Notes: a model not told the origin generated them from the sequence alone. A stretch of DNA of 64,000 nt from Fusobacterium varium (GCA_002356455.1 AP017968.1:1488001-1552000), one strand, 5' to 3'. Positions 13,012 through 34,287 are shown, numbered from the stretch's first letter. Numbers and translations: made by a program.

Positions 13012-13349
13012 TAAAAATCATCTCCAAAAATATCTTTAGTAGTCACAGTATTTGTTTCAGCTTCTTTTATTATCTCTTTTAAAGCTGGTTTTATTTTAGC
13101 AGTTCTTAGTCTGAATTCTTTTAATAGTTCTTCTCCCTCATATCCTTCCATTATCAAATCTTCGAGCAATAAATCAGAAAAATTGAAGTTATCTTCCCTT
13201 AAAGGCGTGATAATCAAAGAGTTTCCATCAGTTCTGATTTTTGCTTCCTTTCCAAAACCTAAGAATTCCATCAGTTTATTTGGAATAGTTATTTGATTTT
13301 TAGATGAAATAGATATAGTCTTATTCATTTCTAAAATGTTAGTTGACAT
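13011..13349 (-). CDS. AbrB/MazE-type antitoxin
   Basis: A 112-residue protein with an N-terminal SpoVT/AbrB DNA-binding domain (ISSKNQITIPNKLMEFLGFG) and an acidic C-terminal part that should wrap the toxin. It precedes the RelE-like toxin, the common order for type II systems. A consensus promoter drives the pair, and TCTTGG direct repeats just downstream of it are candidate operators for autoregulation. An AbrB-type antitoxin with a RelE-type toxin is a less common pairing than AbrB with MazF. Confidence 0.85.
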   Translation of the reverse strand: MSTNILEMNKTISISSKNQITIPNKLMEFLGFGKEAKIRTDGNSLIITPLREDNFNFSDLLLEDLIMEGYEGEELLKEFRLRTAKIKPALKEIIKEAETNTVTTKDIFGDDF

Positions 13350-18206: not shown

Positions 18207-18653
18207 ATGAAAAAATTTTTATGCCTTTTATTTATTTTATTTAGTGGGAATATATTTGCATGGGAAGTTAAAGAAATTGTAGATGAATTTAGAGAACCTA
18301 CTGGCAAGATTAGAATACTCCAATTTGATAATAAAAAAACTTCTTACTTATTCGTAGAAAAAGATAAAGAGGATTTAATTATGGGGTTTATAACGGGATA
18401 TATTGGTGGAAAGGGAGAAAATGGGACATCTAATATAAAAATTAAAATTGATAATAACGCTCCTGTTTCAAGTATAGGAAAAGTGTCAAAACAAGGAAAT
18501 AGAGTAGTAGATTTTTTGACTCCAAAGCTTTTAGAGCAAATGAAAAAAGGAAGGGTAATGAAAGTGGTTATAGAAAAATATAATGATGACACTATATTTC
18601 TAATATTTGAACTAAATGGTTTTTCAGAAGCATTGGAAAAATTATATAACTAA
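18207..18653 (+). CDS. Exported protein, first of two related promoter-driven genes
   Basis: A 148-residue protein with a signal peptide (MKKFLCLLFILFSGNIFA, then W). The ATG at 18207 follows GGAGG. The mature part is beta-rich and contains LLEQMKKGRVMKVVIEK, which aligns with LIEQMKKGKTLKIIIHK of the protein at 29060. This kind of sequence also occurs in small periplasmic proteins of other bacteria (IalB-like). It has its own promoter and lies between the early and late regions. Such genes usually serve the lysogen, for example in exclusion of other phages or in host fitness; neither is proven here. Confidence 0.65.
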   Translation: MKKFLCLLFILFSGNIFAWEVKEIVDEFREPTGKIRILQFDNKKTSYLFVEKDKEDLIMGFITGYIGGKGENGTSNIKIKIDNNAPVSSIGKVSKQGNRVVDFLTPKLLEQMKKGRVMKVVIEKYNDDTIFLIFELNGFSEALEKLYN

Positions 18654-18740
18654 AATAAATCCTTTTTTAAACTAGAAGAGAATGGAAGATTAATAGTTGC
18701 AGAAGAAGATTAAATATAGTAGAATATAAAAAAATAAATA

Positions 18741-18821
18741 ATAACCAGTTTGGCGACCGTAATGGGTGGATTGGATTAATTACAGATGAAAGTCTGTAGT
18801 TTTTCTAGTCCACCTTTTTTT
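18741..18821 (+). ncRNA. Structured element with terminator before terS
   Basis: GGTGGA (18765-18770) pairs with TCCACC (18809-18814), enclosing the hairpin ACAGA/TCTGT (18782-18797), and seven T follow. The upstream part, AACCAGTTTGGCGACCGTAA, is GC-rich for this phage. It can be a terminator, the body of a small RNA, or, given its position just before terS, part of the DNA packaging (cos/pac) region. I cannot choose between these. Confidence 0.4.
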
Positions 18822-18832
18822 ACTTGACTGAT

Positions 18833-18896
18833 AAAAATAAAAAGAGCCTTTGTAGGCTCAAAAACTGTATCAAAACATCATTTCTGGGGAAAGATG
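18833..18896 (-). ncRNA. Candidate small RNA, leftward, C-rich loop
   Basis: The promoter is an extended -10 TGTTATAAT (minus strand, TATAAT at 18908-18903). The ~64-nt RNA holds ACATC-N13-GATGT with TTTCCCC in the loop, and ends in the terminator GAGCC-N6-GGCTC followed by TTTTTATTTTT. The ATCTTTCCCC block recurs in the RNA at 44041-44116. C-rich loops of this kind often pair with ribosome sites of target mRNAs. Confidence 0.55.
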
Positions 18897-18957
18897 TAAT
18901 TAATTATAACATAAATAAGTAAAAAAACATAGAGAAATATAATAAAGAGGTGGTGAT

Positions 18958-19704
18958 GTGGCAAGGATAAGAGACCCAGCAAGAGATAAAGCTAAAGAGC
19001 TATATCTAAATAATAAAGATATTACAAATAGAGAGATAGCAAATATCTTAAAAATAGATGAAAAGAAGGTAGCAACTTGGAAATATAGAGATAAATGGGA
19101 ATGTAATACAGAAGAAAAAAAGAATGTAGTACAACAAAATAAAAAGTGTAGTACTACAAAACCAAAAGAAGAAAAAAAAGCTTTAATTTCTAGCGAAGAT
19201 AAAGACTATGAATGGGTAGATGAAGAGGACGGATTGACTGATAAACAGAGACTTTTCTGTCATTATTATATGCAATCTTTGAACGCTTTTCAAGCAGCTA
19301 TAAAGGCAGAATATAGTCCAAGCTATGCAAGAGTTGATGTATATCGTCTCCTAGAAAATCCTAGCATAAAAAAATATTTAGAGAAATTAAAAGAGCAGCA
19401 AAGACAAAAATTTCTAATTTCACAAGAAAGAATATTAAATAGACATATTCAGGTGGCTTTGAGCGATATAAATGAGTATTTCAATGAAGATGGTAGCCCT
19501 AAACCTATAACTCATACAGATGGAACTTTAATCAAAAAAATGAAGATAGTAGAGAATGATAAGGGGAAAAGTGTAGAAATAGAATTAATAGAAAAATGTA
19601 AATCTTTAGATTTTCTTACACGATATTTAGGATTAGAAAGTGAAGATAAAGACAATAAAATCGTTACTTTTATTAATGAGGTGAGAAAAAAGAATGGATT
19701 GTAA
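18958..19704 (+). CDS. terS: Terminase small subunit
   Basis: A 248-residue protein. Residues 1-50 form a helix-turn-helix that should bind the packaging site (DITNREIANILKIDEKKVATWK). From about residue 95 it matches the Terminase_2 family (LTDKQRLFCHYYMQSLNAFQAA, quoted in part: LTDKQRLFCHYYM, then YARVDVYRLLENPSIKKYL). It recognises phage DNA and guides the large subunit. The start is GTG with GAGGTGGTGAT upstream. It overlaps the large-subunit gene by 11 bases, the usual order at the start of the late operon. Confidence 0.92.
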   Translation: MARIRDPARDKAKELYLNNKDITNREIANILKIDEKKVATWKYRDKWECNTEEKKNVVQQNKKCSTTKPKEEKKALISSEDKDYEWVDEEDGLTDKQRLFCHYYMQSLNAFQAAIKAEYSPSYARVDVYRLLENPSIKKYLEKLKEQQRQKFLISQERILNRHIQVALSDINEYFNEDGSPKPITHTDGTLIKKMKIVENDKGKSVEIELIEKCKSLDFLTRYLGLESEDKDNKIVTFINEVRKKNGL

Positions 19705-21385
19705 AGGCTATATAGAAGAGAGGAAGAGACTCTGGAATAAAACAAATGACATAGAAGTGGACCAAGAATGGAGAAAAGCTTCTTGGTATGAACTTATAGA
19801 TAACAAAGAAACCTTTAAAGAGTTATTAGAAAATCCATGGTATTTAATGGAAATGCACTTTTGTGTTATAGATAAAGAGTTCAATGAGGTTCCTTTTTTT
19901 CTTAATGAAGTGCAAAATGACTTCTTAAACAATATTTTATTACCATTAGTATACAAACAAAATAAAAAAGAGATAGAGCAAATAAAAATTAAGATTCTAA
20001 AAGGTAGACAACAAGGATTTACAACCTTGATAACTGCTTTTCAAGAGTGCCTAATGCTTACGCAAGAAGGATTTAGGGGCTTTACTATGGCACATGATAA
20101 TGATGCAACCAATTCTATATTTTCTGACATAGCAAAAGGATTCTTTGATGGACTAATAGATGAAATAAAAGAAAAACCAAAGCGTTCTAATGCAAGAGAA
20201 CTCATATTTGCAGGAAATAACAGTGCATGGAGAGTAGCAACAGCAGGGAGTAAAGGAGCAGGAAGAGGAAAGAAATTAAAAATGCTTCATAACTCTGAAA
20301 AGGCATTCTGGAAAGACATGAGAAAAAATGCTGCTGCAATATCCCAAGCATTGACTAAATACTCTATTGAAATTGATGAGACCACAGCCAATGGCTACAA
20401 TGAATTCAAAGATGATTGGGATTCTATCAAAGAGGGGAAAAGTAAATGGATAGGAGTTTTCTATGAATGGTATAGAACATTTGAATATAGGAAGTCTTTC
20501 AAGGGTGTTGAGTATACAGAAGAAGAGTTCAAAGCAGCAATAGAAAAAGAAGAGAGATTCAAGGGAGTAGACACAAAATTTATGAAACTTCTAAAATCCC
20601 TCATGAATGAAACTAAGTTAGATATAAAACAAATACATTGGTATTTTGATAAACGCCTTGAATTAAAAGAAGATGTATATCAAGAATATCCTTGTACAGA
20701 TGAAATGGCGTTTTTACATTCTGGAAGGCCTTATTTTGATATAGAGCTATTAGATATTCTTATTAATCAAAATAAAAATATTGAGTTTATAAGCAAGTAT
20801 AATGGTGAAATAGAAATTTTTGAAGAGCCACAAAAGAATGTAGAGTATATAATTGGCTCTGACGTAGCTGAGGGTTTAGAACTTGGGGATAGCTCCACAT
20901 TCTTCATACTAAGGGCTGATACAATGACAGAGGTTGCAAATGGAGAATATAAAGTAAAGCCTGATGAACATGGGTTGTTGTTGGAGCACTGGGGCAAAAA
21001 ATACAACAATGCTTTTATAGGAGTAGAAAGAAACAATCATGGACATTCCACATTAAATACTTTAATTAATACTTGCAAATATCCATATATCTATATAGAG
21101 AAAACGCTAGATAAAAGATATAACAAAGAAACAGAGAAGCCGGGATGGAGTACAAATCCTACATCAAAGTACATTATGCTTGATGATTTAGATACAGCTA
21201 TAAGGAATGAAGAGATAACTATAAAATCAGTTAGGACTTTAAAGCAGATGCGGGAAATTCAAAAAGAAGATGGAAAAGTCAACACAAATGGGAAGGATAG
21301 AGTAATAGCAGTAGCTATAGCTTACCAAATGCACAAATTAAAACCTAAAGCCCCTATTGTAATGAAAAAGCCAAAAGGATTCTAG
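19694..21385 (+). CDS. terL: Terminase large subunit
   Basis: A 563-residue packaging motor. Near residues 95-110 the Walker A-like motif KILKGRQQGFTT is seen, with the adenine-binding region before it. The C-terminal nuclease domain shows IIGSDVAEGLELGDSSTF with the metal-binding aspartates and a later D in the region GKDRVIAVAIAYQ. It pumps DNA into the prohead and cuts it. Length and order (after terS, before portal) are normal. GAGGTGAG precedes the ATG. Confidence 0.95.
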   Translation: MDCKGYIEERKRLWNKTNDIEVDQEWRKASWYELIDNKETFKELLENPWYLMEMHFCVIDKEFNEVPFFLNEVQNDFLNNILLPLVYKQNKKEIEQIKIKILKGRQQGFTTLITAFQECLMLTQEGFRGFTMAHDNDATNSIFSDIAKGFFDGLIDEIKEKPKRSNARELIFAGNNSAWRVATAGSKGAGRGKKLKMLHNSEKAFWKDMRKNAAAISQALTKYSIEIDETTANGYNEFKDDWDSIKEGKSKWIGVFYEWYRTFEYRKSFKGVEYTEEEFKAAIEKEERFKGVDTKFMKLLKSLMNETKLDIKQIHWYFDKRLELKEDVYQEYPCTDEMAFLHSGRPYFDIELLDILINQNKNIEFISKYNGEIEIFEEPQKNVEYIIGSDVAEGLELGDSSTFFILRADTMTEVANGEYKVKPDEHGLLLEHWGKKYNNAFIGVERNNHGHSTLNTLINTCKYPYIYIEKTLDKRYNKETEKPGWSTNPTSKYIMLDDLDTAIRNEEITIKSVRTLKQMREIQKEDGKVNTNGKDRVIAVAIAYQMHKLKPKAPIVMKKPKGF

Positions 21386-21388
21386 GAG

Positions 21389-22822
21389 GTGATAAAAATT
21401 TTAATTCATGAAGAAATTATGAAAAATATAGATGAATATATTTTGCAACATCAAGAAAAGATAAAAAATGTGGCTAAATACAGAAAGTTCTTTAAAAATC
21501 AAGTTGGAAAGCATTATAAAAAAAGAATTATAAAAAATTTGAGACTAAAAGATGAAGTAGCAAGATGGCTGAATCCTGATGGAACAATAACAATAGGAGG
21601 AGTAATAACTGATGAGATAACAATAGATGACATCATAGTGGAAAGCACTTTGCCAAAGGCAGCAGTAAATACTTTAAAAACATATAGTGTGGGAGAAGCT
21701 CCATATATTGATATTGATGTTACAAATACAAAAAAAGACTGGAAAAAAGATTTTGAAATAAGAGAAAACATTCGTGGAAAGACTAAACAGCTTGTGGAAG
21801 AAGCACTTGTTACTGGAAACGCCTTTGTTAAAGTGGAAAAGGGAGATAATAACAAAGCAGAAGTAATAGTTTTACCAGTGGAGAATGTAATAATCATTCC
21901 AGATCCTAATAATATATCAAAAGTAGCAGGCTACATATATTTTTGTGAATTGGAAAAAGAAACATCTGATGGCAAAAATACAAAATATAAATATATAGAA
22001 ATTTATCAATTAGATGGTAAAGTTTTTGTTTATAACGGAATAGATGATAAAGAGCCTACAGAAGTTGACCCAACAACTAACGAAATAAATCTGCACCATG
22101 TGAGTGGAATTGAAAGGGAAGGTTTGTATGGGAAATCTATTTTTGAAGGGTTAGAAACAACTTTTTTGGAAATTGTAATAAGGCTTACATCCAATAGCTA
22201 TTTATTTAATAAGATAAATAATCCTAATATGGTGGGCTCTGGTGGGATGGCAGCATTAAATAGAGAAACAGGAGAAAAAGAGGTGAAAAGTGGGACATAT
22301 ACTGATTTTGAAATGCCAGAACAAGCAAATTCAGTACGATATGTGGAGCCTCCAACTTCTCATGTTACGGCTATTTATGAACACTTAAAAATCAATATGC
22401 AGAATGCTTACTCTCAATTAGGAGTTAATGAAATAGCATTAGGGCTAAGTAGAGAAGGAAATACAGCAAGTGGAGAAGCTTTTAAAAAGGCTATAACCTC
22501 AACATTAAATAAATGCAGAGATATTACAACTAATCTCTATGCTCCTTTATATAACATATATAAACAAGCTTATTTAATAGAGGAAAAAGCAACTTTAAGC
22601 CTTGATATTATTTTTAAAGATGGAATTAGCCTTTCAGAAAAAGAAGAATTAGAAAATGAAGCTATACAAGTTACAAATAAATTATTGTCTAGAAAATCTA
22701 TTCTTCTCAAAAGAGGCTTTACAGAAAAAGAAGCAGAAAAAGAACTGGAAAGAATAATGGAAGAGGAAGAAAAGCTTTTTGGTACAATTAGTGAAACTTT
22801 AGAAGAAAAGGACCTAGACTAA
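21389..22822 (+). CDS. Portal protein
   Basis: A 477-residue protein of the phage portal type (SPP1 Gp6-like): mixed N-terminal part, the central region with VEEALVTGNAFVKVEKG and VIIIPDPNN, and a helical C-terminus with an acidic tail. It forms the DNA entry ring and sits between terL and the minor head gene. The start is unclear. AGGAGG (21384-21389) overlaps the GTG at 21389. An ATT at 21398 lies at ideal spacing, and the first ATG is at 21419. The true start is probably 21398 or 21419. Confidence 0.88.
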   Translation: MIKILIHEEIMKNIDEYILQHQEKIKNVAKYRKFFKNQVGKHYKKRIIKNLRLKDEVARWLNPDGTITIGGVITDEITIDDIIVESTLPKAAVNTLKTYSVGEAPYIDIDVTNTKKDWKKDFEIRENIRGKTKQLVEEALVTGNAFVKVEKGDNNKAEVIVLPVENVIIIPDPNNISKVAGYIYFCELEKETSDGKNTKYKYIEIYQLDGKVFVYNGIDDKEPTEVDPTTNEINLHHVSGIEREGLYGKSIFEGLETTFLEIVIRLTSNSYLFNKINNPNMVGSGGMAALNRETGEKEVKSGTYTDFEMPEQANSVRYVEPPTSHVTAIYEHLKINMQNAYSQLGVNEIALGLSREGNTASGEAFKKAITSTLNKCRDITTNLYAPLYNIYKQAYLIEEKATLSLDIIFKDGISLSEKEELENEAIQVTNKLLSRKSILLKRGFTEKEAEKELERIMEEEEKLFGTISETLEEKDLD

Positions 22823-22823
22823 T

Positions 22824-23927
22824 ATGGCTAAAAAGAATGAAAGAAACCATTTAATAAAACTGTATGAGGAAGCATTAAAAAACCTTATATATAAATTTGA
22901 AAAACTTTTAAAAGAAGGGAGAAAAGTTGATTATGAAACTTATCTGTTAAAAGAATTAAAAAAATCTTTTGAGGAAATTAAGGAACAGAAAAAAATCATA
23001 CAAATGACTTTGAATGATGAATATTTGAATAGAAAAATAGCTGAAATAGAAAAAGCTATAAGAATTGCAAATGTAGATATGAAATACAACTATAAACAGT
23101 TTACCAAGATAGATACTGAAAATATTATAGAATTGTATGGAGTTTTTAATGAAAGGACTAATAGGGCAGCAAAGGGAATAGGTAAACAGATACAAAAGTT
23201 CTTTACAGAAGAGCAGCAAAAGGCAACAAGTGAATTAAATAGTTTTGTTAGAGATGAACTTGTTTCAAGGGAGCTGGGAAAAAGTAAAAAAGAAGCAATA
23301 GCAAGTTTGACTGAAAAACTAAGAGATAATTTATATTTTATTTTGAGAACAGATACAGGAAAGCTATTGAAAATGTCTTTACCAGCTTATGCAAAAATGA
23401 ACTTGAATACAATGTTTCAACAAGCCAAAAACGCAGCAACAATACAAGCAGTTAAGGAAACAAAAAGTAATCTTGTAAGATTTTCTCGGCATTACTGGAC
23501 TTGTGAAACATGTGCCAAGTATGCAGAAGGGCGGATTTATAGCTTAGATAGAAGAATAAAAAAATATCCATATTTATATGATATTCCGGGCTTTAATATG
23601 GGCTATAAAAGTATCCATCCTAACTGTAAACATCTTTTATCTGGTTATTATGAAGAAGGCCATAATCAAAAAGAGATAGAAGAGAATAAAAAGCTATCAA
23701 ATAATCAATCAGACACTAGAAGTTCAGAAATGATTAAAAAATATGAAATGAAACAAGAAATAAACAGACTTGAAAGAGTTAAAAACAGTATAAATGCCAA
23801 GCTACAGACTTTACGGGGTGTAAATCTCACGGAGGAAGAAAGAGGCATGATATCTGTTTTAAATAGAAGAAAAAAAGAGATAATAAAAAAAATCAATTCT
23901 TTGAGAGATAATTTTAGGGGATTGTAG
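22824..23927 (+). CDS. Minor capsid/head morphogenesis protein
   Basis: A 367-residue protein directly after the portal gene. The N-terminal 250 residues are helical, and the region with HYWTCETCAKYAEGRIYSL and HPNCKHLLSG has the H/C pattern of phage minor head proteins of the SPP1 gp7/Mu F group (phage_min_cap2). It is incorporated in few copies near the portal and may aid DNA ejection. The C-terminus is a charged coiled coil. The call is firm at family level. Confidence 0.85.
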   Translation: MAKKNERNHLIKLYEEALKNLIYKFEKLLKEGRKVDYETYLLKELKKSFEEIKEQKKIIQMTLNDEYLNRKIAEIEKAIRIANVDMKYNYKQFTKIDTENIIELYGVFNERTNRAAKGIGKQIQKFFTEEQQKATSELNSFVRDELVSRELGKSKKEAIASLTEKLRDNLYFILRTDTGKLLKMSLPAYAKMNLNTMFQQAKNAATIQAVKETKSNLVRFSRHYWTCETCAKYAEGRIYSLDRRIKKYPYLYDIPGFNMGYKSIHPNCKHLLSGYYEEGHNQKEIEENKKLSNNQSDTRSSEMIKKYEMKQEINRLERVKNSINAKLQTLRGVNLTEEERGMISVLNRRKKEIIKKINSLRDNFRGL

Positions 23928-23936
23928 GAGGAAAAA

Positions 23937-24593
23937 ATGACAATACAAGAAATACTAGCATTAATAGGACAAAACAAAGATAATCCAGAGCTTATAACAG
24001 GCCTTGTAGCATTAAATTTAGTAGCAACTAAAGAGACAATAAAGGAGGTAGAAGCAAAATATACAGATGATGGGGTAATGGAATATTTATCAAAAACACA
24101 ATCTTTATCAGATAAGATTTTCAATGAGAATGTCAAAAAGTTTTTATCAAAAAAATTAGGAAAAGACATAAAAGAGATTAAAGATGAAGATCTGGGACTA
24201 GAACTTATTCCAAAATCTAGTTTAACAGAACAAACAGGAAAATATCAAGGAAAGATTAAAGAATATGAAATATCAAAAGCTTTAGGAGATAAAGCAGACC
24301 TTTTGAAACCACACCTAGACATGAATAAAATCACAATAGGTGATGATTTTACTGTAAAAGGGGTAGATGAACAAGTAACAGCTTTGAAAACAAAATTCCC
24401 TATGCTCTTTGAAGTTAAGGAAGATAAAAAAGAAGATAAGCCGGGAGGAACAGGACAAAAAGGTGGAGGAATATTGACACTACAAGAACAGTTAAAGGCA
24501 GCAGAAAAGAAGGCTTTAGAAACAGGAAGTGCAAAAGATAGAGCAGCATATCAAGATTTAAAAATGAAGATAGAAAATGGAGGAGATGAATAA
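23937..24593 (+). CDS. Scaffolding protein
   Basis: A 218-residue, charged and helical protein immediately before the major capsid gene. Its C-terminal part is low in complexity (EDKKEDKPGGTGQKGGG) and ends in a basic-acidic helix, the usual form of phage scaffolds (Gp20-like). It would direct prohead assembly. Its stop overlaps the capsid start. Assigned by composition and position rather than by motif. Confidence 0.75.
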   Translation: MTIQEILALIGQNKDNPELITGLVALNLVATKETIKEVEAKYTDDGVMEYLSKTQSLSDKIFNENVKKFLSKKLGKDIKEIKDEDLGLELIPKSSLTEQTGKYQGKIKEYEISKALGDKADLLKPHLDMNKITIGDDFTVKGVDEQVTALKTKFPMLFEVKEDKKEDKPGGTGQKGGGILTLQEQLKAAEKKALETGSAKDRAAYQDLKMKIENGGDE

Positions 24594-25771
24594 TGAAAAC
24601 AATGAGATCATTAAGAAAAAAATACAAATTTATGGGAATACAAGTATTTGCAGGTGGAGGAACTACTAATCAAATAAATACACCAAATCAACTAATTTCA
24701 GCAGATATTTCAGATGAATTAAATTTGATAAATGCCAGTGTTTCCCCAATAGTATCACATATTTTGAGAGGTGGAAGAAAAACACCAACAACATCAACAA
24801 CAATAGAATGGATAGATTCTTATATTAGAAAAACAGATACTGTATTAAGTGCAAACATAGGAGATAGTGATACTACTTTGACTGTGGCACATGAAGAAGT
24901 TCTAGTAAAAGATTCTTTACTGGCAATAGAAGAAGAAGTTGTATATGTAACAGCAGTTTCAGGAGCTACTGCAACAGTAACAAGAGGATATGGATCAACA
25001 ACAAAAGTAGCACATAATAAAGGAGTAGAAATCAAAAATATGGGAATCTTTATGGAAGAAGGGGGAGAACTTAAACCTTCAACTGTAAAATTACCAGTAA
25101 ACATAGAAAATAAGACTGGGATTATATATGAACAGTTTGAAGTGACAGAATCGGCAAAACATACATATATTCAAGGACAAAACGGGCTTTCAGCATATCA
25201 AATGGAAAGTATGAAAAAGAAAGAAGAACTATTGAGCATAATTGAAAATAAAATATTAAATTCTGTTAAGTTTGTATCAGGAATGTCAAGAAATAATGAT
25301 GGGGTAAAAGCATTAATCAGACAACATGGAATAGTAGTTGATGCAGAAGGAGCAGAGCTTACAAAAGCATTTATTGATAAGGTTGTAAAACAAATTATAG
25401 ATGCAGGTGGAGGTAATGACCTTGCAGCAGGAAAATATTTTATTGTAGCAGCATATGACCAAGTTAATAGAATAGATAATTTTAACAAGGATACTATAAG
25501 AACATCACAAGATGAGAAAGTAACAGGAACGAAAATCACTCAAATTGTTACTACTGGAGGAACTTTAAATGTTTTCCATGCAAATTCTTTAAATAGGGAT
25601 GAAGCTTTGATAATGAACTTAGAAGAATTAGAAATGAAAGAGTTATATCCTCTTAAAGAAGAGATAGGAGCAAAAACAAAGTTAGCAGATAATTATTTTA
25701 TCCATGGAGAATTTTCTGTAAAACTAGGAAAATGCCCTTGTCAAATGTGGGTTAAAAATTTAAAGGCATAA
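24593..25771 (+). CDS. Major capsid protein, SU10/DUF5309 type
   Basis: A 392-residue protein of the SU10-like major capsid family (DUF5309): start with NQINTPNQLISADISDELN, an inserted beta domain (about 85-150: GDSDTTLTVAHEEV, VTRGYGSTTKVAHNKG), and a C-terminal HK97-type core. It builds the icosahedral shell. It is the most abundant virion protein, in line with the strong ribosome site GGAGGAGATGA. The family is typical of some siphoviruses and podoviruses. Confidence 0.88.
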   Translation: MKTMRSLRKKYKFMGIQVFAGGGTTNQINTPNQLISADISDELNLINASVSPIVSHILRGGRKTPTTSTTIEWIDSYIRKTDTVLSANIGDSDTTLTVAHEEVLVKDSLLAIEEEVVYVTAVSGATATVTRGYGSTTKVAHNKGVEIKNMGIFMEEGGELKPSTVKLPVNIENKTGIIYEQFEVTESAKHTYIQGQNGLSAYQMESMKKKEELLSIIENKILNSVKFVSGMSRNNDGVKALIRQHGIVVDAEGAELTKAFIDKVVKQIIDAGGGNDLAAGKYFIVAAYDQVNRIDNFNKDTIRTSQDEKVTGTKITQIVTTGGTLNVFHANSLNRDEALIMNLEELEMKELYPLKEEIGAKTKLADNYFIHGEFSVKLGKCPCQMWVKNLKA

Positions 25772-25787
25772 TTTTTGGAGGTACTGA

Positions 25788-26009
25788 ATGAGTAATGTTT
25801 TAGAAGAATTGAAAGAGAAAAGCAAAGAAGAGACAAAAGAGGAAGTTATAGAAGAAAAGAGAGAAGGTTTTATATTCAAATCTAAAGTTCCTAATTTGTA
25901 TCTTTATGTTATGGATATAAGATTTAGAAAAGGGGAATATGTGACAACAGATGAAAAAGAAGCAAAAGCTTTAAGGAAGATAGCAGGAATAGAAGAGGTT
26001 AAAAAATGA
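25788..26009 (+). CDS. Hypothetical structural-region protein
   Basis: A 73-residue protein between capsid and connector genes. The first 25 residues are a charged helix (ELKEKSKEETKEEV). The rest looks like a small beta domain (FIFKSKVPNLYLYVMDIRFRKGEYVTT is its core, part FRKGEYVTTDEKEA). Products here are often head-decoration or connector-adjacent proteins. It overlaps the next gene by four bases. Confidence 0.6.
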   Translation: MSNVLEELKEKSKEETKEEVIEEKREGFIFKSKVPNLYLYVMDIRFRKGEYVTTDEKEAKALRKIAGIEEVKK

Positions 26010-26461
26010 TACTAGTAAAAGGAATAAATTCTTATATTACAGTAGAGGAAGCAGAGGAATTATTGAAGCTTGAAAAACCAGAAGAGGCAGAAAAGTTTAG
26101 AAACCTTGATACTAAAGTTAAGGAATATAACTTAATAAAGGCAACTTCTAAAATAGAAAGCCTAAATATTCCAAGAGAAGAGAGGGAAGAAGGATTAATA
26201 TTCCCTCTTCCTTATCAAAAAGGAGTAATTCCACTTGAAGTAAAGCTTTGTTGTATATTAGAGGCCTTGTATATGGCAACAAATCAAATAACAATAGAAT
26301 TAGAAAAATTCAAGTCTGGAATAATTGCACAAAGCGAGAAAACAGCTTCTGTGACATTTGATATAAGTATGATAAATAAATACAAAGAGATTCCTTTTGT
26401 AAATCTTGAAGCTTATAAACTTATTGAAAACTATGTGAGTAAATCATATAGAATAAGATAA
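26006..26461 (+). CDS. Head-tail connector (adaptor) protein
   Basis: A 151-residue, largely helical protein with the layout of gp6/gp15-type adaptors: SYITVEEAEELL at the start, a central RNLDTKVKEYNLIKATSKIE helix, then VKLCCILEALYMA. It should bind under the portal. The position between capsid and head-closure genes supports this. Confidence 0.75.
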   Translation: MILVKGINSYITVEEAEELLKLEKPEEAEKFRNLDTKVKEYNLIKATSKIESLNIPREEREEGLIFPLPYQKGVIPLEVKLCCILEALYMATNQITIELEKFKSGIIAQSEKTASVTFDISMINKYKEIPFVNLEAYKLIENYVSKSYRIR

Positions 26462-26486
26462 TTCCCATTTTTAATAAAAATGGGAA
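26462..26486. repeat. Palindromic element, copy 2 of 4 (perfect)
   Basis: TTCCCATTTTT-AAT-AAAAATGGGAA, a perfect 11-bp stem with a three-base loop, in the gap between the connector and head-closure genes. The following AAAGGAGG is the ribosome site of the next gene, so the stem could also affect translation or serve as an RNA cleavage site. Confidence 0.7.
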
Positions 26487-26500
26487 AGGAGGCAATCTAA

Positions 26501-26848
26501 ATGAGTTTAAGAAGAATGTTAGGTTATAACATTGATAAAATAACAGTTTGGGAAGAAATAGAGGGCTTAAAAGATGAAGATGGAATACCAACAAAGATAT
26601 GGAAAAAGAATATATTTAATGGAAGGTGGGAAAATTCTATAAAAATTATAAGAAATATGGCAGGTGACAGTATATCTTCTACAGCAAATGTAATAATTCC
26701 TATTCTTCTTGATGTAAAGAAAAATATTCTTATAGAAAATGGAGAAAGCAAGGAAGAAAAACCAAGCATAGAGGCAAGAAAAATAATGACTATGGAAGAA
26801 ATAACAAGGATAGGTAAACCATCATTGGAGTGGATTTATTATGTCTAA
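26501..26848 (+). CDS. Head-closure / minor head-tail protein
   Basis: A 115-residue beta-rich protein in the place of head-completion proteins (SPP1 gp16-like). It has KITVWEEIEGLKDEDGIPTK near the start, typical of minor structural proteins of this size (phage_head_tail_2 group). Call by position and general look. Confidence 0.65.
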   Translation: MSLRRMLGYNIDKITVWEEIEGLKDEDGIPTKIWKKNIFNGRWENSIKIIRNMAGDSISSTANVIIPILLDVKKNILIENGESKEEKPSIEARKIMTMEEITRIGKPSLEWIYYV

Positions 26849-27167
26849 TATAAAAAGTAAAATAGATGCAGCAGTAGCAAGAGGTTTGAATAAATTTGGA
26901 GAACATTTAAAGAGTGAAATTTTAGATATCACTCCACTAGATACAGGAGAACTGAGAAGAAGTATATATGTAAAAAAAGCTACTGAAGGAAATCTAGCTG
27001 TAGAAATTGGAAGTAGTGGAGCAATAGCCTCTTACAATGTTTATGTACATGAAATCCCATTCACAAATTATACAACAGCAGGAACAGGCTATAAGTTCAT
27101 AGAAAGACCTTTTGAAAAAGAAAAACATAAAATAAAAGACTTTATCAAAGCAGAGGTTAGAAAATGA
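26841..27167 (+). CDS. HK97 gp10-like tail-completion protein
   Basis: A 108-residue protein with the gp10 family features: an N-terminal helix, then DITPLDTGELRRSIYVK and later YNVYVHEIPF and KFIERPFEKEK. These proteins help join head and tail. It overlaps the genes on both sides by a few bases. Confidence 0.85.
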   Translation: MSNIKSKIDAAVARGLNKFGEHLKSEILDITPLDTGELRRSIYVKKATEGNLAVEIGSSGAIASYNVYVHEIPFTNYTTAGTGYKFIERPFEKEKHKIKDFIKAEVRK

Positions 27168-27490
27168 AAATAAGAGAAATAGTAAGGGCAATAAATAGTT
27201 TAGAATTAGGAATAACAGCTATATACGGATATTCTGATACTAAAGAAAATGGCATATACGTAATAGATACTTTGGTAAAAGATATTACAAAGCACAATAA
27301 AGAAGAAAGGATTCAAATTCTTATTTGTATGACAAAAGTTGAAAATTCTTATTTGAAAATAAGAGAACTAGCCGAAAAAATCAAAAAGAAGCTAGATGAA
27401 ATGGGGTGTTATGGTATTTCAATGCATTATGTAGGGGAATATCAGAATAAACACAATTATTCTATTAATTTAAGTATAGGAGGAATATAA
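27164..27490 (+). CDS. Tail terminator-like protein
   Basis: A 108-residue mixed alpha/beta protein between gp10-like and tail-tube genes, the standard place of tail terminators (gpU/gp17-like). The layout helix-strand-strand-helix fits. No clear signature motif. Confidence 0.65.
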   Translation: MKIREIVRAINSLELGITAIYGYSDTKENGIYVIDTLVKDITKHNKEERIQILICMTKVENSYLKIRELAEKIKKKLDEMGCYGISMHYVGEYQNKHNYSINLSIGGI

Positions 27491-27491
27491 A

Positions 27492-28292
27492 ATGGTAAAC
27501 ATAAAAGAAGTAGTTCATAACAGTAAGGAAAGATTTTTAGAAGTACAGCCTAATGGGGCAGGACTTTATATTGGAATGCAGGCATATAAAGCCATAAAAG
27601 ATGAAAGTGAGTATACTGATTCAATGAAAGTAATAATTCCTAAGATGGAATTATTGGAAGGAAGTATATCTGGGACAACTTTTACAATTACAACAGGAAC
27701 AGCAGAAGTAATATCAGCTCCTAAAAATATTGTAGTAGCTCTGTTTGATAAATCTGAGTTAGACACATTAGCGACTGCTGAAAATTTTAGAGGAATGGCA
27801 AATCCTAATTTAGTTGAAATTGTAAAAGTAACTGCTACAACAGCAAGTACAATAACATTAGCAAATGAGCCAAGAAATACATCATTTACAAGTGCAATTT
27901 TACTAGAAAATGATGGATATATTGATGTAGCACAGATAACAGACTTTACATCAACAGAGCAGCAAGCAGAAATAAATACTAATAATAAGCATTCAAATGG
28001 GTATGAAAGTGCAATAGGGGGGCTTAAAACTTCCAGTATAGATGGAATACAAGGGTATTATCACCCAGATTTTCCATCAGTAGCAACTTTGAACTTTGCC
28101 TTTGATGGAGAATATACTGTAAAGGCTAGACATGGAGCTTTAAAACAGAAAAATACTCCGTATATAGAGGGAGTGTATAAAGTAACAGAATTTACACATT
28201 CAGGAACTCTTGATGGAGGAAGTGCTTTAAGTTATACAGCAAGTTTAAAGCTTCAATCAGGAATGATAGAAAAGAAAGTTTTTACAAAATAA
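27492..28292 (+). CDS. Major tail tube protein
   Basis: A 266-residue beta-rich protein with an inner Ig-like insertion region (about 50-110, rich in T, V and A: TFTITTGTAEVISAPKN). Late tail genes around it and a strong hairpin after it support the role of main tail-tube subunit. Length is normal for siphovirus tubes. Confidence 0.8.
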   Translation: MVNIKEVVHNSKERFLEVQPNGAGLYIGMQAYKAIKDESEYTDSMKVIIPKMELLEGSISGTTFTITTGTAEVISAPKNIVVALFDKSELDTLATAENFRGMANPNLVEIVKVTATTASTITLANEPRNTSFTSAILLENDGYIDVAQITDFTSTEQQAEINTNNKHSNGYESAIGGLKTSSIDGIQGYYHPDFPSVATLNFAFDGEYTVKARHGALKQKNTPYIEGVYKVTEFTHSGTLDGGSALSYTASLKLQSGMIEKKVFTK

Positions 28293-28296
28293 GAGC

Positions 28297-28318
28297 AAAG
28301 GGGAGTAATCCCCTTTAT
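28297..28318 (+). terminator. Partial terminator after the tube gene
   Basis: AAAGGGGA-GTAA-TCCCCTTT, an eight-base stem with a short T run. It probably lowers transcription of the downstream genes relative to the abundant tube protein. Confidence 0.6.
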
Positions 28319-28373
28319 CCTTATTCCTTTAAATGAGAATAATTTTTGATTTAAGAGAATAAGAGGAGGAAAT

Positions 28374-28973
28374 ATGAAATTAAAAATAAATGAAATAGAA
28401 TATAAATTAAAACTAAATTTAAGAGCAAGGATGAAGCTTATAAAATATTATCCAGATGAAACGGGAATGTTTGAAAAAGCAATTCAGGGAGATATAGAGG
28501 CAATAACAAGAATAATATATTCTTCTTTACAAGAATATAGTTTTTCTTATGAGGACTTTTTAAAGAGTTATCCAGATATAAAAGAGAGCTATGAGGCATT
28601 ATATAAAATGCTTCAGAAATTAATAGATGAGGCAGGAAACCCATTTGAGCTGTCTAGTAATAGAAATACTCATGAAGAAAAAAGAGAGCCTGTTAAAACA
28701 GATTTTAGAGAATTAATAATAACTTTAATGAGTAAAGGTTATAAACAGGAAGAAGTTCTGGATATGACTTATTGGGATATCAATCTAGTATTTGAGGCAG
28801 ATTATAAAAAGCTTGAAAGAGAAGTTTTTCATACAAACGCTTTAATAAATACAATGGCTGGCATAATGGGAAGTAAGGAAACAATAGATATTCTAGGAAG
28901 AAAAAAGAAAGAAGAATATAGAGATTATTCTATGTTTGATAAAGTAAGTGAATTGCTAAACAAAAAGAAATAA
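28374..28973 (+). CDS. Tail assembly chaperone (Gp15-like)
   Basis: A 199-residue protein directly before the tape measure region. N-terminal residues (LKINEIEYKLKLNLRARMKL) match Gp15-type chaperone proteins, and the second half is helical. These coat the tape measure before tube assembly. I looked for a -1 slip site that would make a longer product and found only a short extension, so a gpG/gpGT frameshift is not supported. Confidence 0.75.
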   Translation: MKLKINEIEYKLKLNLRARMKLIKYYPDETGMFEKAIQGDIEAITRIIYSSLQEYSFSYEDFLKSYPDIKESYEALYKMLQKLIDEAGNPFELSSNRNTHEEKREPVKTDFRELIITLMSKGYKQEEVLDMTYWDINLVFEADYKKLEREVFHTNALINTMAGIMGSKETIDILGRKKKEEYRDYSMFDKVSELLNKKK

Positions 28974-29010
28974 ATAAAAAAGGAACATTGGAAAATAAAT
29001 ATATCTGAGG

Positions 29011-29039
29011 TTGCTAATCTTTTTTTTATAAGGTATACT
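29011..29039 (+). promoter_or_regulatory. Promoter of the second exported-protein gene
   Basis: TTGCTA (29011-29016), 17 bp, TATACT (29034-29039), 20 bp before the ATG. With the terminator at 29847 it isolates the gene from the late operon. Confidence 0.7.
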
Positions 29040-29059
29040 AAAAAGAAAAAGGTGATTAG

Positions 29060-29821
29060 ATGAAGAAAATATTATTATTGTTTATCATTATTTCAAGCTT
29101 TGCTTTTGGAGAATGGAAAACCTATGAAATAGGAGAGTTTAGAACTATTGAATTTGAAGAAAATTTCAGAATAACTTATTATAAAAATGAAATTATAGGA
29201 TCAAGTATCGTTGTTGAAGATAAAAAAGAATTTGAAAGAATATCACATACTTTTAATGAAGATTATGGGCCAGCGAATAATTTACCTTTTATTGCAAATG
29301 TATATGTTGAATTTAAAATAGATGATAATGAAGAACTGCTATTTAAGACTTATCCAAAAGGAAAGTATGATAATAGGTTAATAAACTTAGATTTATATTA
29401 TAAAAAGAATATGAAGCTGGAAGAAACAGAGAAAATTCAACTTTTAATAGAACAAATGAAAAAAGGGAAAACATTAAAAATAATTATCCATAAAGGAAAA
29501 AATAAAATAGAAAAAAAATATGAATTGGAAGTAGTGAATAATAAAAATATGAAAGTTAATTCAACCTATAATGATATTAAAAAGGAAAAACTAGAAAAAG
29601 ATATCAAAAGATTAGAAGAAGAAGAAATCGTTTTAGGTAGAAAAAACAAGGGTTTTGGAGTACAAGAAATAGTAACAATTAAGGAATTAGAAGCTAATCC
29701 TAGTGGGAATGAAATGCAAAAACTTAAAGATAAAGGCCTTCAATGTGTTGGCTTAACACAAAGTAAAATAATGGAATTAAGTAAGATGAGAAATCAACTT
29801 AAAAAAATGGAAGAATTATAG
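29060..29821 (+). CDS. Exported protein with a tape-measure-derived C-terminus
   Basis: A 253-residue protein with a signal peptide (MKKILLLFIIISSFAFG). Residues 18-165 resemble the exported protein at 18207 (both have L-x-EQMKKG-x-x-x-K). Residues 174-253 align with residues about 545-626 of the adjacent tape measure protein: KRLE-x-EEIVLGRKNKGFG is shared, and about 42 of 65 positions are identical by hand alignment. It has its own promoter and terminator inside the late operon, the definition of a moron. A protein that carries a piece of tape measure in the periplasm could block DNA entry of related phages, as the Ltp protein of phage TP-J34 acts on tape measure protein. This is an inference. 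Confidence 0.75.
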   Translation: MKKILLLFIIISSFAFGEWKTYEIGEFRTIEFEENFRITYYKNEIIGSSIVVEDKKEFERISHTFNEDYGPANNLPFIANVYVEFKIDDNEELLFKTYPKGKYDNRLINLDLYYKKNMKLEETEKIQLLIEQMKKGKTLKIIIHKGKNKIEKKYELEVVNNKNMKVNSTYNDIKKEKLEKDIKRLEEEEIVLGRKNKGFGVQEIVTIKELEANPSGNEMQKLKDKGLQCVGLTQSKIMELSKMRNQLKKMEEL

Positions 29822-29846
29822 GAAAAATTAAAAAGGCATAAAATTA

Positions 29847-29880
29847 CCTCAGATAATATTGATCTGGGGTTTTTTATTTA
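29847..29880 (+). terminator. Terminator of the exported-protein gene
   Basis: CCTCAGAT (29847-29854) pairs with ATCTGGGG (29862-29869), followed by seven bases of T in a T-rich tail. It ends the moron transcript before the tape measure gene. Confidence 0.75.
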
Positions 29881-29901
29881 CAAAAAATAAGGAGTTGAAA
29901 A

Positions 29902-32900
29902 ATGCAGGAAGATATAAAAATTATAGTAACAGCAGATACTGCACAAGCAGAAAAACAAATAGATAAGATGGATGGCAAAGAAGTTGAAGTAAAGGCAAAG
30001 CTTAAAGTACCTAAAAATCATTTGCAAGAAGTAAAAAATGAAGTAGATCTTTTAGGAAAAAAAGTTGCTGATATAAAAATGAATAAAAAAGCCTTTTCTC
30101 CAGAAGATATTAAAATTTTAAAGGCAGAAATAGAAGCAGCAGCTCTAAAAGCAAAGGCCATTTATTTTGGAGAGGGTAGCAGAAGTGCCAAAGAAATGGT
30201 AGATAGATTAAAAGAGATGCATAAGGCTTTAGCAGAAGGAAAGAAACAGGTAAAAGAAACAAATCAAATTTTTGGAAGTATGGATGTAATGATTGGAAGC
30301 CTAAAAGCTAAAATTATTGCAAGTATAGTAAATACACTTAAACAAGGAGTAGCAGAAGGAGCAAAACTTACAGGGCAGTTAGAATATGCAACAGAAAAAA
30401 CCAGAACTATTTCAACAGCAAACAGAGGGATAATAAACAGTGAAGTAGATAGAATAGGAAAAAAGTTTGGCACTGATTATAGGGAAGTATCAGAAGGGCT
30501 TTATCAGGTAGTAAGTGCAATAGGAGACGTTCATAAAAAGTATGCTTTATTGGAAACATCAAATAAGCTAGCAATAACAGGATTTTCATCTGTAAATGAA
30601 TCTGTAGATGGACTGACAACTGTTTTAAATGCTTATAATTTAGAAATAGAAGAAGCAGACAGAATAGCAAATATATTTGTAAGAACGCAGAAAGTAGGAA
30701 AACTTACAGTACAGGAATTTCAGCAGCAATTATATAGAACTGTTCCAGTAGCAAAGGAATTAGGAATAAGTGTGGATGAAATAGGGGCATCTATTGCATT
30801 ACTTACAGCAAAAGGAAGCAAGGCCGAAGTAGCACAAACACAGATGGCAAGCTTTATGTATGAGCTGTTAGATACTGCAAGTGATGTAAACAAGCTTTTT
30901 ACTAGATTAGCAGGGCAAAGCATAGATACATATATGAAAAATGGAGGAAATCTTGAAGGAATTTTAAGGACCTTAAAAGAATACTCTAATCAATCTGGCT
31001 TTAAAGTAGAAAGCTTATTTGGAAGAAAAGAGGCCAAAAGTTATTGGTTAAGTATAGGAAATGACATAAAAGGATATTTAGAAAAGTTAAATGCAATAAA
31101 TGATCCTTTTAATGAATTAGAAAGAAATGTAGATAATCTAATGGCTACAATGGAGAAAAGAATAGAAAGAGGAGCTAGATATTGGGATGACTTCAAAATG
31201 GCTATTGGAGCAGGAGCACTTGAAATAGTGGCTTCTATTGGAGATATAGCAACAGGCCATGATAAAGAAACAGTGGCCAGAAAAAAAGCAAATATAGAAA
31301 TGGAAAATAATATAAAAATATTGGAAGAACTTGGAAGAAAAAGTGATAAAACAAAAGAAGAACAAGAAAAACTGAATGAAGCTTTAAAAGTATTAGAAGT
31401 ATTAGCCCCAGAGATAGCAGAAGCTTATAAAAGATGGACTAAAGAAGGTGGAAACTATGCAGAAGTACTTTCTTTGATAAAACAAAGACAAACAGAGGTT
31501 AATAATTCATTTAAGGAAATAAGCTATAAAGAAGCTAAAAAAGAAAAAGAAGATTTAGAAAAACAAATAAAGAGATTGGAAAATGAAGAAATAGTTTTAG
31601 GTAGAAAAAATAAAGGATTTGGAGTAATTGAAGCAGTGACTGTAAAAGAACTAGAAAAAAATCCTGATGGGCTTGAAATGAAAAAACTCCAAGAAAAAGG
31701 CTTTGAATATGCATCAGAGGCACAAAGTAAACTGATATTATTAAAAAAATTAAAAGAACAACAAAAAGAGGCGGAAAAAACATTAGCAGAAAAAGAAAAA
31801 GAGATAGTAAATTTTGGAAAGAGTGGAGAAGGTAAGAAAACTCCAGAAGAAAATAAAATAAAAAAAGAGACAGCAAAGTTATTAGAAAGCAATAAAAAAA
31901 TATATGAAGAAAACTTAAAAAAATTATCAGAAAATGATAGTAAATCTCGTGAAATGTTGAATAAGGCATACCTTAATAATGAGGAAAGAATAAAAAAACA
32001 AGGCCAAATAAAAGAATATGAGCAAGAAAGAATAGAACTTGAAATTAGTCTTGGTAACGGAGATACAAACAAAGAAGAAATAGAAAATAAAATCAAAGAA
32101 ATTGATTTGAAAATAGATGAATTAAGAAAAAATATAAATATTGGAGAGTTTAAAACTAAACAACAAATTGAGAATGATACTTCAAGAGAACTTATAAAGG
32201 CACAAAAAAGGTATTCTGAAAAGTTAAATAAATTATCTAATACAGATTTTGTAGGAAAAGAAAGGCTAGATAATTTATATAAAAATGAAACTGAAAAGAT
32301 AAAAAAACAAGGAGAATTAGAGAAATACAGATTAGAAAAAAGTGATTTGGAAAAGAGCATAGCTAATGAAATGGATATTGGGAAAATAACAGAAGCTAAA
32401 AGTGAAATAGATAAAATTTCTTTGAAAATACAAGACCTTGAAGGAGAAATCGGAATAGCTGATGCAGAAAATAGAATAGATAATGCTAAAAAATCAGAAG
32501 ATGAAAGAAAAAAAGCAGAAGAAAAAGCGAAAAAAGAGATAGAAAAAAAGAATAAATCAGAACAACTTAAAATTGATACTGAATATAATAAAAAAATGCT
32601 TGAAGCAACTGAAAAATATAATAAAAATATGGCAGCTCTTAAAGAAAAAGGAACTAAAGAAGAAATAGAAGCAGTAAAGAAGGCTTATGAAAAGGCTAAA
32701 AGAGATATAGAGACAGAAAAGAAGATAAAAACTTTAGAAAATAAAAAAGAAAATACTTTTTATTCTACTGACACAGAAAAAAAGGTAAATGCTGAAGCTA
32801 TAACATCTGAAATAGCTTTAACAATGGCAAATGCAGAAAAAGAAGAAGCGGACCAAGAGGCAAAGGAAGCACAAGAAAAAAATACCAAAGCTCTTGAAAA

Positions 32901-34287
32901 TATGAGTAATAATTTGAAAAATTTAGCTAATATGTTTCAAGTTATTGGAGATAATACAAGCAGTCAATCATTGAAAAATATTTCTAATATAGCAAATATA
33001 GGAAGCACTATTTTTGATACTTTAAAGGGAACGGAACAAGGAGCCAACCTTTTAACAAAAGTTTTTGGAAGTGGAGCAATTCCGGGCTTTAAGGATTTTA
33101 GTATGGGAGCAGGTATAGGTAGTGCTATTTCTGGAGCCTTAGGAGGCGGAGCGGAGGGAAATATTGGAAGTATGATAGGAAGTGGAATAGGAACAGCAGT
33201 AGGCGGACCAGTAGGAAGCATAGTGGGTGGAGCTATTGGAAGCGTTGGAGGTAGCCTGTTTGGAAGAAAGAGCAAAAAGAAGAAAAAGAGAGAAGAGAAA
33301 AGGAGAAAAGAAGCACAGGAAAGATTAAAAAAAGGACTTATATCAGGCCAATACAAATGGGCTGATGTGGTAGAGGCATATAATGAAGATTTAGCTAGAT
33401 TAGGTGCAGGGAGCTATATTAATTTATATGATAGAGTACAGGCAAATACTAATTATGACACTAACCTTTCTACTTTAGAAGCTGCTAAAGTGGGACATGA
33501 TGGTGTAAGTATGACTACTCTAAAACAATTAATGCCACAATATAGTGAACAACAAATAATAGACTGGTTTAAATCAATAACAGGTGGAGCAGTTTTAAAT
33601 GGAGATACACTAAGCACAGGAGAGGGAAAATATGGTGCAATAGATATAACAGCTCTTGCACAGCAAGTAACAAATGTAAATAGAGAAGTTGAAAAATCTT
33701 TAAAAGAGACTATAAAAGGAATTATAGATTTTTCAGCAGACAGTTTGGCACAGGTTGTTAAAAATGGATTCTTTGATGGATTAGATGACCTTGGAAATAA
33801 TCTTGAAAAAATGTTGGCCAACAGTTTAAAAAATGCCTTTATCAATACAGAGATATCAAAAGCTTTATTCAATGGAATGTCTGACAAGGTATCTGAAATA
33901 GTAAAGGATATGTTTAGAAAGGATGCTAATCTTGGTATTCAACTTGAAACAGGAAATTTAGAAAATTTAACACTTACACAATATATAGAGCTTATTAAAA
34001 AATATATGGAAGCTTCAAATGAGAAATTAGAAGATCTATTCAAGGAATTAGGAATGAATTTGGATAACTTAACAAATAGTGTGGATAGCTTAAATAAGAA
34101 TATGAGTAAGAATACAGTTCAAGGAATGGCAACAAATTTATGGAAGTATAATGCAGGCCAAAAAGTAACAACAGAATTTAATGGAACTTTTGAGATTCCA
34201 ATAATGCTTGATGGACAAGTATTGGACAAGAGAATTATCAAAGTAACAAGTGATAGTATGAGAAAGGCAAGGAGGAATAAATTTTAA
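29902..34287 (+). CDS. Tape measure protein
   Basis: A 1461-residue protein. Residues 1-120 are helical; about 150-340 form the TP901-type tape measure core (ATEKTRTISTANRG, FGTDYREVSEGLYQVVSAIG). A coiled coil rich in E and K spans about 420-1010, and a glycine-rich hydrophobic stretch lies near 1070-1125 (GAGIGSAISGALGGG, GSGIGTAVGGPVGSIVGG), the likely membrane-inserting part. Residues 545-626 are duplicated in the exported protein encoded just upstream. It sets tail length and helps DNA enter the cell. Confidence 0.95.
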   Translation: MQEDIKIIVTADTAQAEKQIDKMDGKEVEVKAKLKVPKNHLQEVKNEVDLLGKKVADIKMNKKAFSPEDIKILKAEIEAAALKAKAIYFGEGSRSAKEMVDRLKEMHKALAEGKKQVKETNQIFGSMDVMIGSLKAKIIASIVNTLKQGVAEGAKLTGQLEYATEKTRTISTANRGIINSEVDRIGKKFGTDYREVSEGLYQVVSAIGDVHKKYALLETSNKLAITGFSSVNESVDGLTTVLNAYNLEIEEADRIANIFVRTQKVGKLTVQEFQQQLYRTVPVAKELGISVDEIGASIALLTAKGSKAEVAQTQMASFMYELLDTASDVNKLFTRLAGQSIDTYMKNGGNLEGILRTLKEYSNQSGFKVESLFGRKEAKSYWLSIGNDIKGYLEKLNAINDPFNELERNVDNLMATMEKRIERGARYWDDFKMAIGAGALEIVASIGDIATGHDKETVARKKANIEMENNIKILEELGRKSDKTKEEQEKLNEALKVLEVLAPEIAEAYKRWTKEGGNYAEVLSLIKQRQTEVNNSFKEISYKEAKKEKEDLEKQIKRLENEEIVLGRKNKGFGVIEAVTVKELEKNPDGLEMKKLQEKGFEYASEAQSKLILLKKLKEQQKEAEKTLAEKEKEIVNFGKSGEGKKTPEENKIKKETAKLLESNKKIYEENLKKLSENDSKSREMLNKAYLNNEERIKKQGQIKEYEQERIELEISLGNGDTNKEEIENKIKEIDLKIDELRKNINIGEFKTKQQIENDTSRELIKAQKRYSEKLNKLSNTDFVGKERLDNLYKNETEKIKKQGELEKYRLEKSDLEKSIANEMDIGKITEAKSEIDKISLKIQDLEGEIGIADAENRIDNAKKSEDERKKAEEKAKKEIEKKNKSEQLKIDTEYNKKMLEATEKYNKNMAALKEKGTKEEIEAVKKAYEKAKRDIETEKKIKTLENKKENTFYSTDTEKKVNAEAITSEIALTMANAEKEEADQEAKEAQEKNTKALENMSNNLKNLANMFQVIGDNTSSQSLKNISNIANIGSTIFDTLKGTEQGANLLTKVFGSGAIPGFKDFSMGAGIGSAISGALGGGAEGNIGSMIGSGIGTAVGGPVGSIVGGAIGSVGGSLFGRKSKKKKKREEKRRKEAQERLKKGLISGQYKWADVVEAYNEDLARLGAGSYINLYDRVQANTNYDTNLSTLEAAKVGHDGVSMTTLKQLMPQYSEQQIIDWFKSITGGAVLNGDTLSTGEGKYGAIDITALAQQVTNVNREVEKSLKETIKGIIDFSADSLAQVVKNGFFDGLDDLGNNLEKMLANSLKNAFINTEISKALFNGMSDKVSEIVKDMFRKDANLGIQLETGNLENLTLTQYIELIKKYMEASNEKLEDLFKELGMNLDNLTNSVDSLNKNMSKNTVQGMATNLWKYNAGQKVTTEFNGTFEIPIMLDGQVLDKRIIKVTSDSMRKARRNKF

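Follow-up and report, generated by a model that had tools for sequence, protein, structure and literature searches.

A 64,000-nucleotide (nt) stretch of the complete, 4.1-Mb Fusobacterium varium genome (GCA_002356455.1 AP017968.1:1488001-1552000; hereafter the window) carries a siphovirus-type prophage. Between its tail chaperone gene and the gene for its tape measure protein (TMP) sits a gene for a probably exported, periplasmic protein (29060-29821; coordinates are those of the window and the plus strand unless stated otherwise). Judged by sequence comparison, this gene is one of many Fusobacterium phage cargo genes housed in insulated cassettes, each made up of a conserved box, a short anti-terminator arm, the cargo's own promoter, the cargo gene and a terminator. 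We consider it likely that the cassette is a one-way gate, which late transcripts would pass and at which cargo transcripts would stop; this estimate applies to the gate and not to the role of the cargo. The box, the arm, the covariation of arm and terminator, the position of the promoter and the changing cargo are all present at the sequence level. That arm pairing prevents termination in vivo is what we infer.

Results

A cargo gene with its own promoter and terminator in the late operon

The last late-operon gene 5′ of the cassette is a tail chaperone-type open reading frame (ORF; 28374-28973), whose place in the gene order is kept in three related loci (L037, L038 and L039). On the other side lies the gene for the 1461-aa TMP (29902-34287; PHROG tape measure families, E 7e-28, and Pfam PhageMin_Tail). 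The ORF between them encodes a 253-aa protein (P0001) with a putative 17-aa signal peptide (29060-29110; MKKILLLFIIISSFAFG followed by EW), recognized by eye from a basic start, a hydrophobic core and FAFG before E. Because Cys is absent from the signal region (MKKILLLFIIISSFAFGEW), there is no lipobox. The ORF order and this start agree with the sequence-only reading from which we set out, which had described a signal peptide-bearing product encoded within the late operon.

That reading had also assigned the gene a promoter and a terminator of its own, and both assignments held up. The promoter is TTGCTA-17-TATACT (29011-29039, with the −10 hexamer at 29034-29039), and the terminator is ACCTCAGAT-loop-ATCTGGGGT plus a T run (29846-29878). 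Although the promoter hexamers by themselves are not above chance (80 found versus 89 expected), the viral contig L037 keeps 93% identity across the 89-nt promoter region, compared to 74.5% for the N-terminal coding part of the cargo. The terminator is conserved in L037 and also 3′ of a HicAB cassette in L073. The cargo is an extra gene at a site where its neighbors adjoin in relatives; in L039 the chaperone-TMP gap is ~20 nt. From this layout, 29060-29821 is a phage cargo gene (moron) with an independent promoter inside the late operon and putative expression in the lysogen.

L037, the closest relative, was found by a TMP search and has the gene order of the window, with a TMP that is 81% identical in the best segment. 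Its slot holds a 162-aa exported protein (6914-7402 of L037) that lacks any TMP piece. Over its whole length this protein is homologous to the first 162 residues of the 253-aa cargo protein (36% identity, E 1e-16), a stretch that includes the N-terminal domain (29111-29554). As the promoter region and terminator were kept while the coding sequence diverged, the cargo appears to be a fast-evolving moron. Its TMP-derived tail is an addition seen only here. Peptide-pattern searches for relatives of the cargo protein found nothing beyond L037, and matches to the A4 profile in other genomes were weak and mostly confined to the signal-peptide end.

Other phages carry different genes in the slot between chaperone and TMP: a YefM/YoeB pair with further genes in L038 and L093, and HicB-type genes in L043. 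It is empty in L039, a locus with a short TMP. In L073, a different siphophage found via the terminator pattern, HicAB occupies a slot 3′ of the TMP and is followed by the same terminator.

A conserved box is followed by an arm matched to the cargo terminator

Comparing the slots exposed a common element on the upstream side, GRACATTGGMAANNNAATA. After it comes ATCTGAGG, which is the terminator's 5′ arm in reverse complement. In the window the box is GAACATTGGAAAATAAATA (GRACATTGGMAANNNAATA; 28983-29001, the sole exact match in the window). It is followed by the 10-nt arm TATCTGAGGT (29002-29011), whose sequence complements the cargo terminator's 5′ arm and which ends upstream of the predicted RNA start. 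The sequence-only reading, right about the operon setting of the cargo, did not include the box and arm 5′ of its promoter. Rfam gave no match at 28700-30100.

To find further copies, we used a box pattern that is blind to the arm (GNACATTGGMAANNNAATA). It gave 30 matches in 19 of 98 Fusobacteriota genomes, versus one for the reversed control; a stricter box pattern matched eight genomes of Fusobacteriota and had no match in 291 from outside that class. In ~19 of the 30 matches, near-identical copies included, the nucleotides immediately 3′ of the box are complementary to those of a terminator that lies 0.5-3.6 kb further on. Arm versions include TATCTGAGGT, AATACTGAGGATT, CTTACAGAC, CAGACTA, AAAAAGTGTC, AACTAAGGGA, ATAGGTGTGATT, TTTGAGGGGT and TTTAATCGATAA. 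The cargo in box/arm slots comprises exported proteins, YefM/YoeB, HicAB, BRO/Rha and a MORN protein. A pattern containing CTGAGG was dropped as circular for the arm, and the arms were tested only after the box-only search; most of the 26 viral-contig matches of the biased pattern were unrelated or due to chance and had no matching terminator. The box matches in L160 and L161 apparently lie in coding sequence.

In 29 cassettes the arm:terminator duplex reached −9 kcal/mol or below. The real arms have a median complementarity of 9.5 nt, while control windows upstream mostly gave 3-6 nt and rarely more than 6. We compared self and cross pairing with one representative of each arm family (n = 10). 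Mean pairing was −18.1 kcal/mol with the family's own terminator and −6.0 kcal/mol with foreign ones, and all 10 arms paired best with their own terminator (permutation p 5e-6). Thus, the arm varies together with the terminator across 10 distinct arm sequences. Shuffled-arm tests gave a combined p of 4e-21 over 24 loci, a value that is overstated because the loci are related.

Predicted folding gave alternative structures for the two transcripts. For the window, the late transcript has the arm paired to the terminator's 5′ arm (P 0.98), and the cargo transcript has the terminator hairpin (P 0.95). When 22 cassettes were folded, the arm prevailed in the late transcript of 14, and every one of the 22 cargo transcripts formed the hairpin. 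In silico, arm pairing and the terminator hairpin are mutually exclusive, as in attenuators. As in RNAs for processive antitermination, a conserved element (the box) lies 5′ of the terminators concerned.

Across the Fusobacteriota, the box is present both in phages and in operons of conjugation type. A second phage element, in the genome that also holds L039 (L154, G000:C1:2290800-2296900), has a cassette with arm AATACTGAGGATT and a 13-nt match, whose AbrB-like and BRO/Rha-type cargo adjoins a large serine recombinase. L156 (G034:C17:18700-24800) carries a tandem pair of cassettes, each with its own box, a distinct arm and a matching terminator. L137 and L138 (G002:C13 and G004:C54) have a box/arm cassette in operons with type IV secretion system (T4SS)/conjugation-type genes, once with a YoeB-type toxin; the T4SS-type label is a reading of the neighboring proteins, one of which was tested by profile and gave no match. 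Further box/arm cassettes were detected in viral contigs, including L180 and L203, with GGTGGTTGG-type arms that match the cargo terminator. These two contigs have a non-Fusobacterial look, and L203 carries a YonO-like RNA polymerase gene. In L152, L154 and L159, a conserved stretch follows the AATACTGAGG arm subtype, with a hairpin (CCTAAA..TTTGGG) and then a TAGAGTAYAATAAAA motif; it may belong to the element.

A proposed one-way gate

We propose that in the lysogen a short mRNA from the cargo promoter would start past the arm and end at the terminator, leaving the tail genes silent. In the lytic cycle, transcription arriving from upstream would produce a late RNA with the box and the arm. 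The arm would pair with the 5′ arm of the emerging terminator, the hairpin would be blocked and RNA polymerase would go on into the TMP gene. The box would hold the arm near the RNA polymerase exit channel or recruit a factor. Since the arm lies 5′ of the cargo promoter, only read-through transcripts would carry it, and since its complementarity is limited to the terminator or terminators of its cassette, the cassette would be self-contained and swappable. More generally, a modular lock-and-key antiterminator is probably in use among the mobile elements of Fusobacteriota, and perhaps in some phages of Bacillota type; in it, the box would tether an arm specific to the terminators of its own cassette.

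Several observations weigh against this proposal. Equilibrium folding prefers the hairpin in 8 of the 22 late transcripts, that of L037 among them, and the promoter consensus is overall only moderately above shuffled sequence (9.8 versus 8.5 of 12). For ~11 of the 30 box matches in genomes there is no matching terminator; chance occurrence within coding sequence or an emptied slot accounts for some of these, and others are unexplained. Finally, a kinetic win of an arm 0.5-3.6 kb away is beyond what sequence alone explains.

Two other explanations account for parts of the pattern. The box could be a put/nut-like element that gives RNA polymerase general resistance to terminators, with arm complementarity secondary. 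The box is far more conserved than the arm, and cis-acting RNAs are capable of such an effect in put, EAR and canT (PMC9378689, PMC11658703). However, general antitermination would not be expected to select for matched arms, here in 10 sequence versions, and we regard this explanation as improbable. Still less likely is that box, arm and terminator serve the movement of cassettes as an inverted repeat in the DNA. Cassettes are clearly exchanged among phages, and arm and terminator do make an inverted repeat flanking the cargo. However, extra internal terminators of multi-gene cassettes match the same arm by at least 6 nt in 9 of 14 cases (3 of 31 for terminators beyond the cassette), a match for which end repeats would have no use. 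A G.U pair, as is natural in RNA, occurs in 26 of 29 terminator stems, whereas the arm mostly matches perfectly. The cassettes listed contain no transposase, and L142, which equals the L073 slot minus cargo and terminator, retains the box and lacks the arm. The internal-terminator matches, the rarity of matches beyond the cassette and the emptied slot fit an RNA gate rather than end repeats.

The cargo protein ends in a TMP-derived tail

Residues 156-251 of the cargo protein align to TMP residues 523-625 with 52 of 103 positions identical (50%; BLASTP, E 1e-21), which substantiates the homology, first noticed from the sequence alone, of the C-terminal ~80 residues to TMP residues ~545-626. BLASTP and a codon alignment place the tail at residues ~169-251 (29564-29812) and its TMP counterpart at 31519-31776 (TMP residues ~540-625). 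Across 85 codons the tail has 60% aa and 71% nt identity to its own TMP. In a model of TMP residues 430-698, the homologous segment folds as helix, beta-hairpin, helix (mean pLDDT 74). The model of the cargo protein was unusable (pLDDT 47), and a fold search with it was dropped.

The tail is real and apparently selectively maintained. In its core (52 codons), 36 of 39 residues common to the TMPs of the window and L037 are retained. Tail-specific changes in the core are three nonsynonymous and three synonymous, and those in the tail ends 12 and one; neutral drift would give ~4.7 nonsynonymous changes per synonymous change in the core, a comparison that involves small counts. With ~60% aa identity to the TMP and a conserved core, the tail seems old but constrained in its core. 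Of the nucleotide sites that the tail shares with only one of the two TMPs, 31 are in common with the TMP of L037 and 21 with that of the window. By this measure the tail is no closer to its own TMP than to that of L037, which argues that it is not a recent copy of the neighboring gene. A second instance of the fusion in other prophages, which the earlier reading had suggested seeking, was not found in the 98 Fusobacteriota genomes, in IMG/VR pattern scans or in 50,697 phage records.

What does the cargo protein do? Our best guess, which we offer tentatively, is a role in superinfection exclusion or in another lysogenic function. For the tail, one explanation with somewhat less than an even chance is passive: illegitimate recombination of two late-operon segments would have added a tolerated TMP fragment without a role. 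Only one case is known, phages are mosaic, and the junction falls between the ancestral cargo C terminus and its terminator. On the other hand, the tail is old and yet open, and the core has accepted fewer nonsynonymous changes than drift predicts. A more doubtful explanation, compatible with the cassette and concerning only the role of its cargo, is that the tail, a constrained addition, might act in the periplasm on incoming related phages, binding their TMP or displacing it and so blocking DNA entry. Export would keep such a mimic apart from the phage's own cytoplasmic tail assembly, the core is constrained as in TMPs, the tail is slightly nearer another phage's TMP than its own, and the TMP is an established target of exclusion and defense (Ltp, PMC3952083; SNIPE, PMC13190303; Tab, PMC10884400). 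Against this, there is a single instance of the fusion, and the homologous L037 cargo has no tail, indicating that the tail is dispensable for the normal work of the cargo. PADLOC profiles of known defense families matched neither P0001 nor its L037 homologue, nor the exported protein P0003 described below, and the poor protein model lends no support.

Other features of the window and related loci

The gene for a small exported IalB-like protein (P0003; 18207-18653; Pfam IalB) lies where the late region begins; it has a promoter of its own and is outside any box/arm cassette. The N-terminal part of the 29060 protein had been thought related to it; the kinship is weak (30% identity, E 7e-5, a single comparison), and Pfam IalB matches P0003 and not the 29060 protein. 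We rejected IalB/P0003 as a phage exclusion family, because at the two Fusobacterial loci inspected its relatives have neighbors that are apparently not phage genes. A tyrosine-integrase frame (2218-3273) is broken by an in-frame stop (2857-2859) and adjoins an intact integrase gene of opposite orientation (3442-4551). Small RelE-like and AbrB-like genes on the minus strand (12724-13349) are probably a toxin-antitoxin pair.

The locus with the empty slot (L039:8884-16750; G000:C1 ~154.9-162.8 kb) contains tube, chaperone, a short 893-aa TMP and distal tail genes and no head genes. The tail genes lie directly 3′ of a LexA/CI-type repressor gene and chromosomal pgk/GNAT genes. With similar loci at L041, G027 C1:3188724 and G025 C1:1240846, it looks like a conserved siphovirus-derived (F-type) Fusobacterium tailocin. 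A literature search found no useful paper on Fusobacterium tailocins.

Discussion

Prophage late operons carry toxin-antitoxin, exclusion and lysogenic-conversion genes. How such genes can be on in the lysogen with the tail genes off and late transcription unblocked is rarely explained. A one-way gate would explain an independently expressed moron, terminator included, amid an essential late operon, and the matched arm and terminator, if our proposal is true, are a compact answer to this problem. The box search would provide a route to cargo genes, and the arm/terminator pair a simple orthogonal switch. The 29060 protein is well suited for testing whether exclusion proteins are made from a phage's own injection machinery. 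That use of the tail rests on one instance; the box/arm/terminator cassette has the strongest evidence and the widest reach.

Like Ltp of phage TP-J34, a lipoprotein whose repeat domains interact with the TMP (PMC3952083), the 29060 protein is an exported phage protein for which exclusion through the TMP can be considered, here only as a proposal; unlike Ltp, it has no lipobox and itself bears TMP sequence. The proposal also resembles SNIPE, a membrane-bound nuclease that targets the TMP, in being envelope-located and TMP-directed. In some SNIPE homologues the N-terminal region shows homology to the tail needle of P22, and the accessible portion of that report mentions no TMP fragment (PMC13190303). 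In the accessible text of their reports, none of Ltp, SNIPE and Tab is described as built from TMP sequence.

As in lambdoid morons, such as HK97 gp15, a predicted inner-membrane protein (PMC10883804), the cargo has its own promoter and terminator among structural genes and is probably expressed in the lysogen. The cassette would also share with lambda N/nut and Q the crossing of terminators in early or late phage operons. The lambda N/nut and Q systems use protein factors, have a general effect and are not known to have a matched arm. We know of no matched antiterminator arm in lambdoid morons, nor of any described lock-and-key antiterminator acting over kilobases. Our literature search, which covered few subscription papers, found only general processive systems and no matched arm over kilobases.

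Attenuators and riboswitches are local and controlled by ligands or ribosomes. The cassette has in common with them an alternative pairing of the 5′ arm of the terminator. It differs in that arm and terminator are 0.5-3.6 kb apart with whole genes between, the origin of the transcript would decide the outcome, and the arm is linked to a conserved box. Like HK022 put RNA, Bacillus subtilis EAR, Tn916 canT and pLS20 conAn, the box and arm would act in cis as RNA in the operon transcript, allowing distant downstream terminators to be passed. Those RNAs are known or suspected to make RNA polymerase resistant to most terminators (PMC11658703; PMC9378689), whereas here a short arm is complementary to the particular terminator or terminators of its cassette and varies with them.

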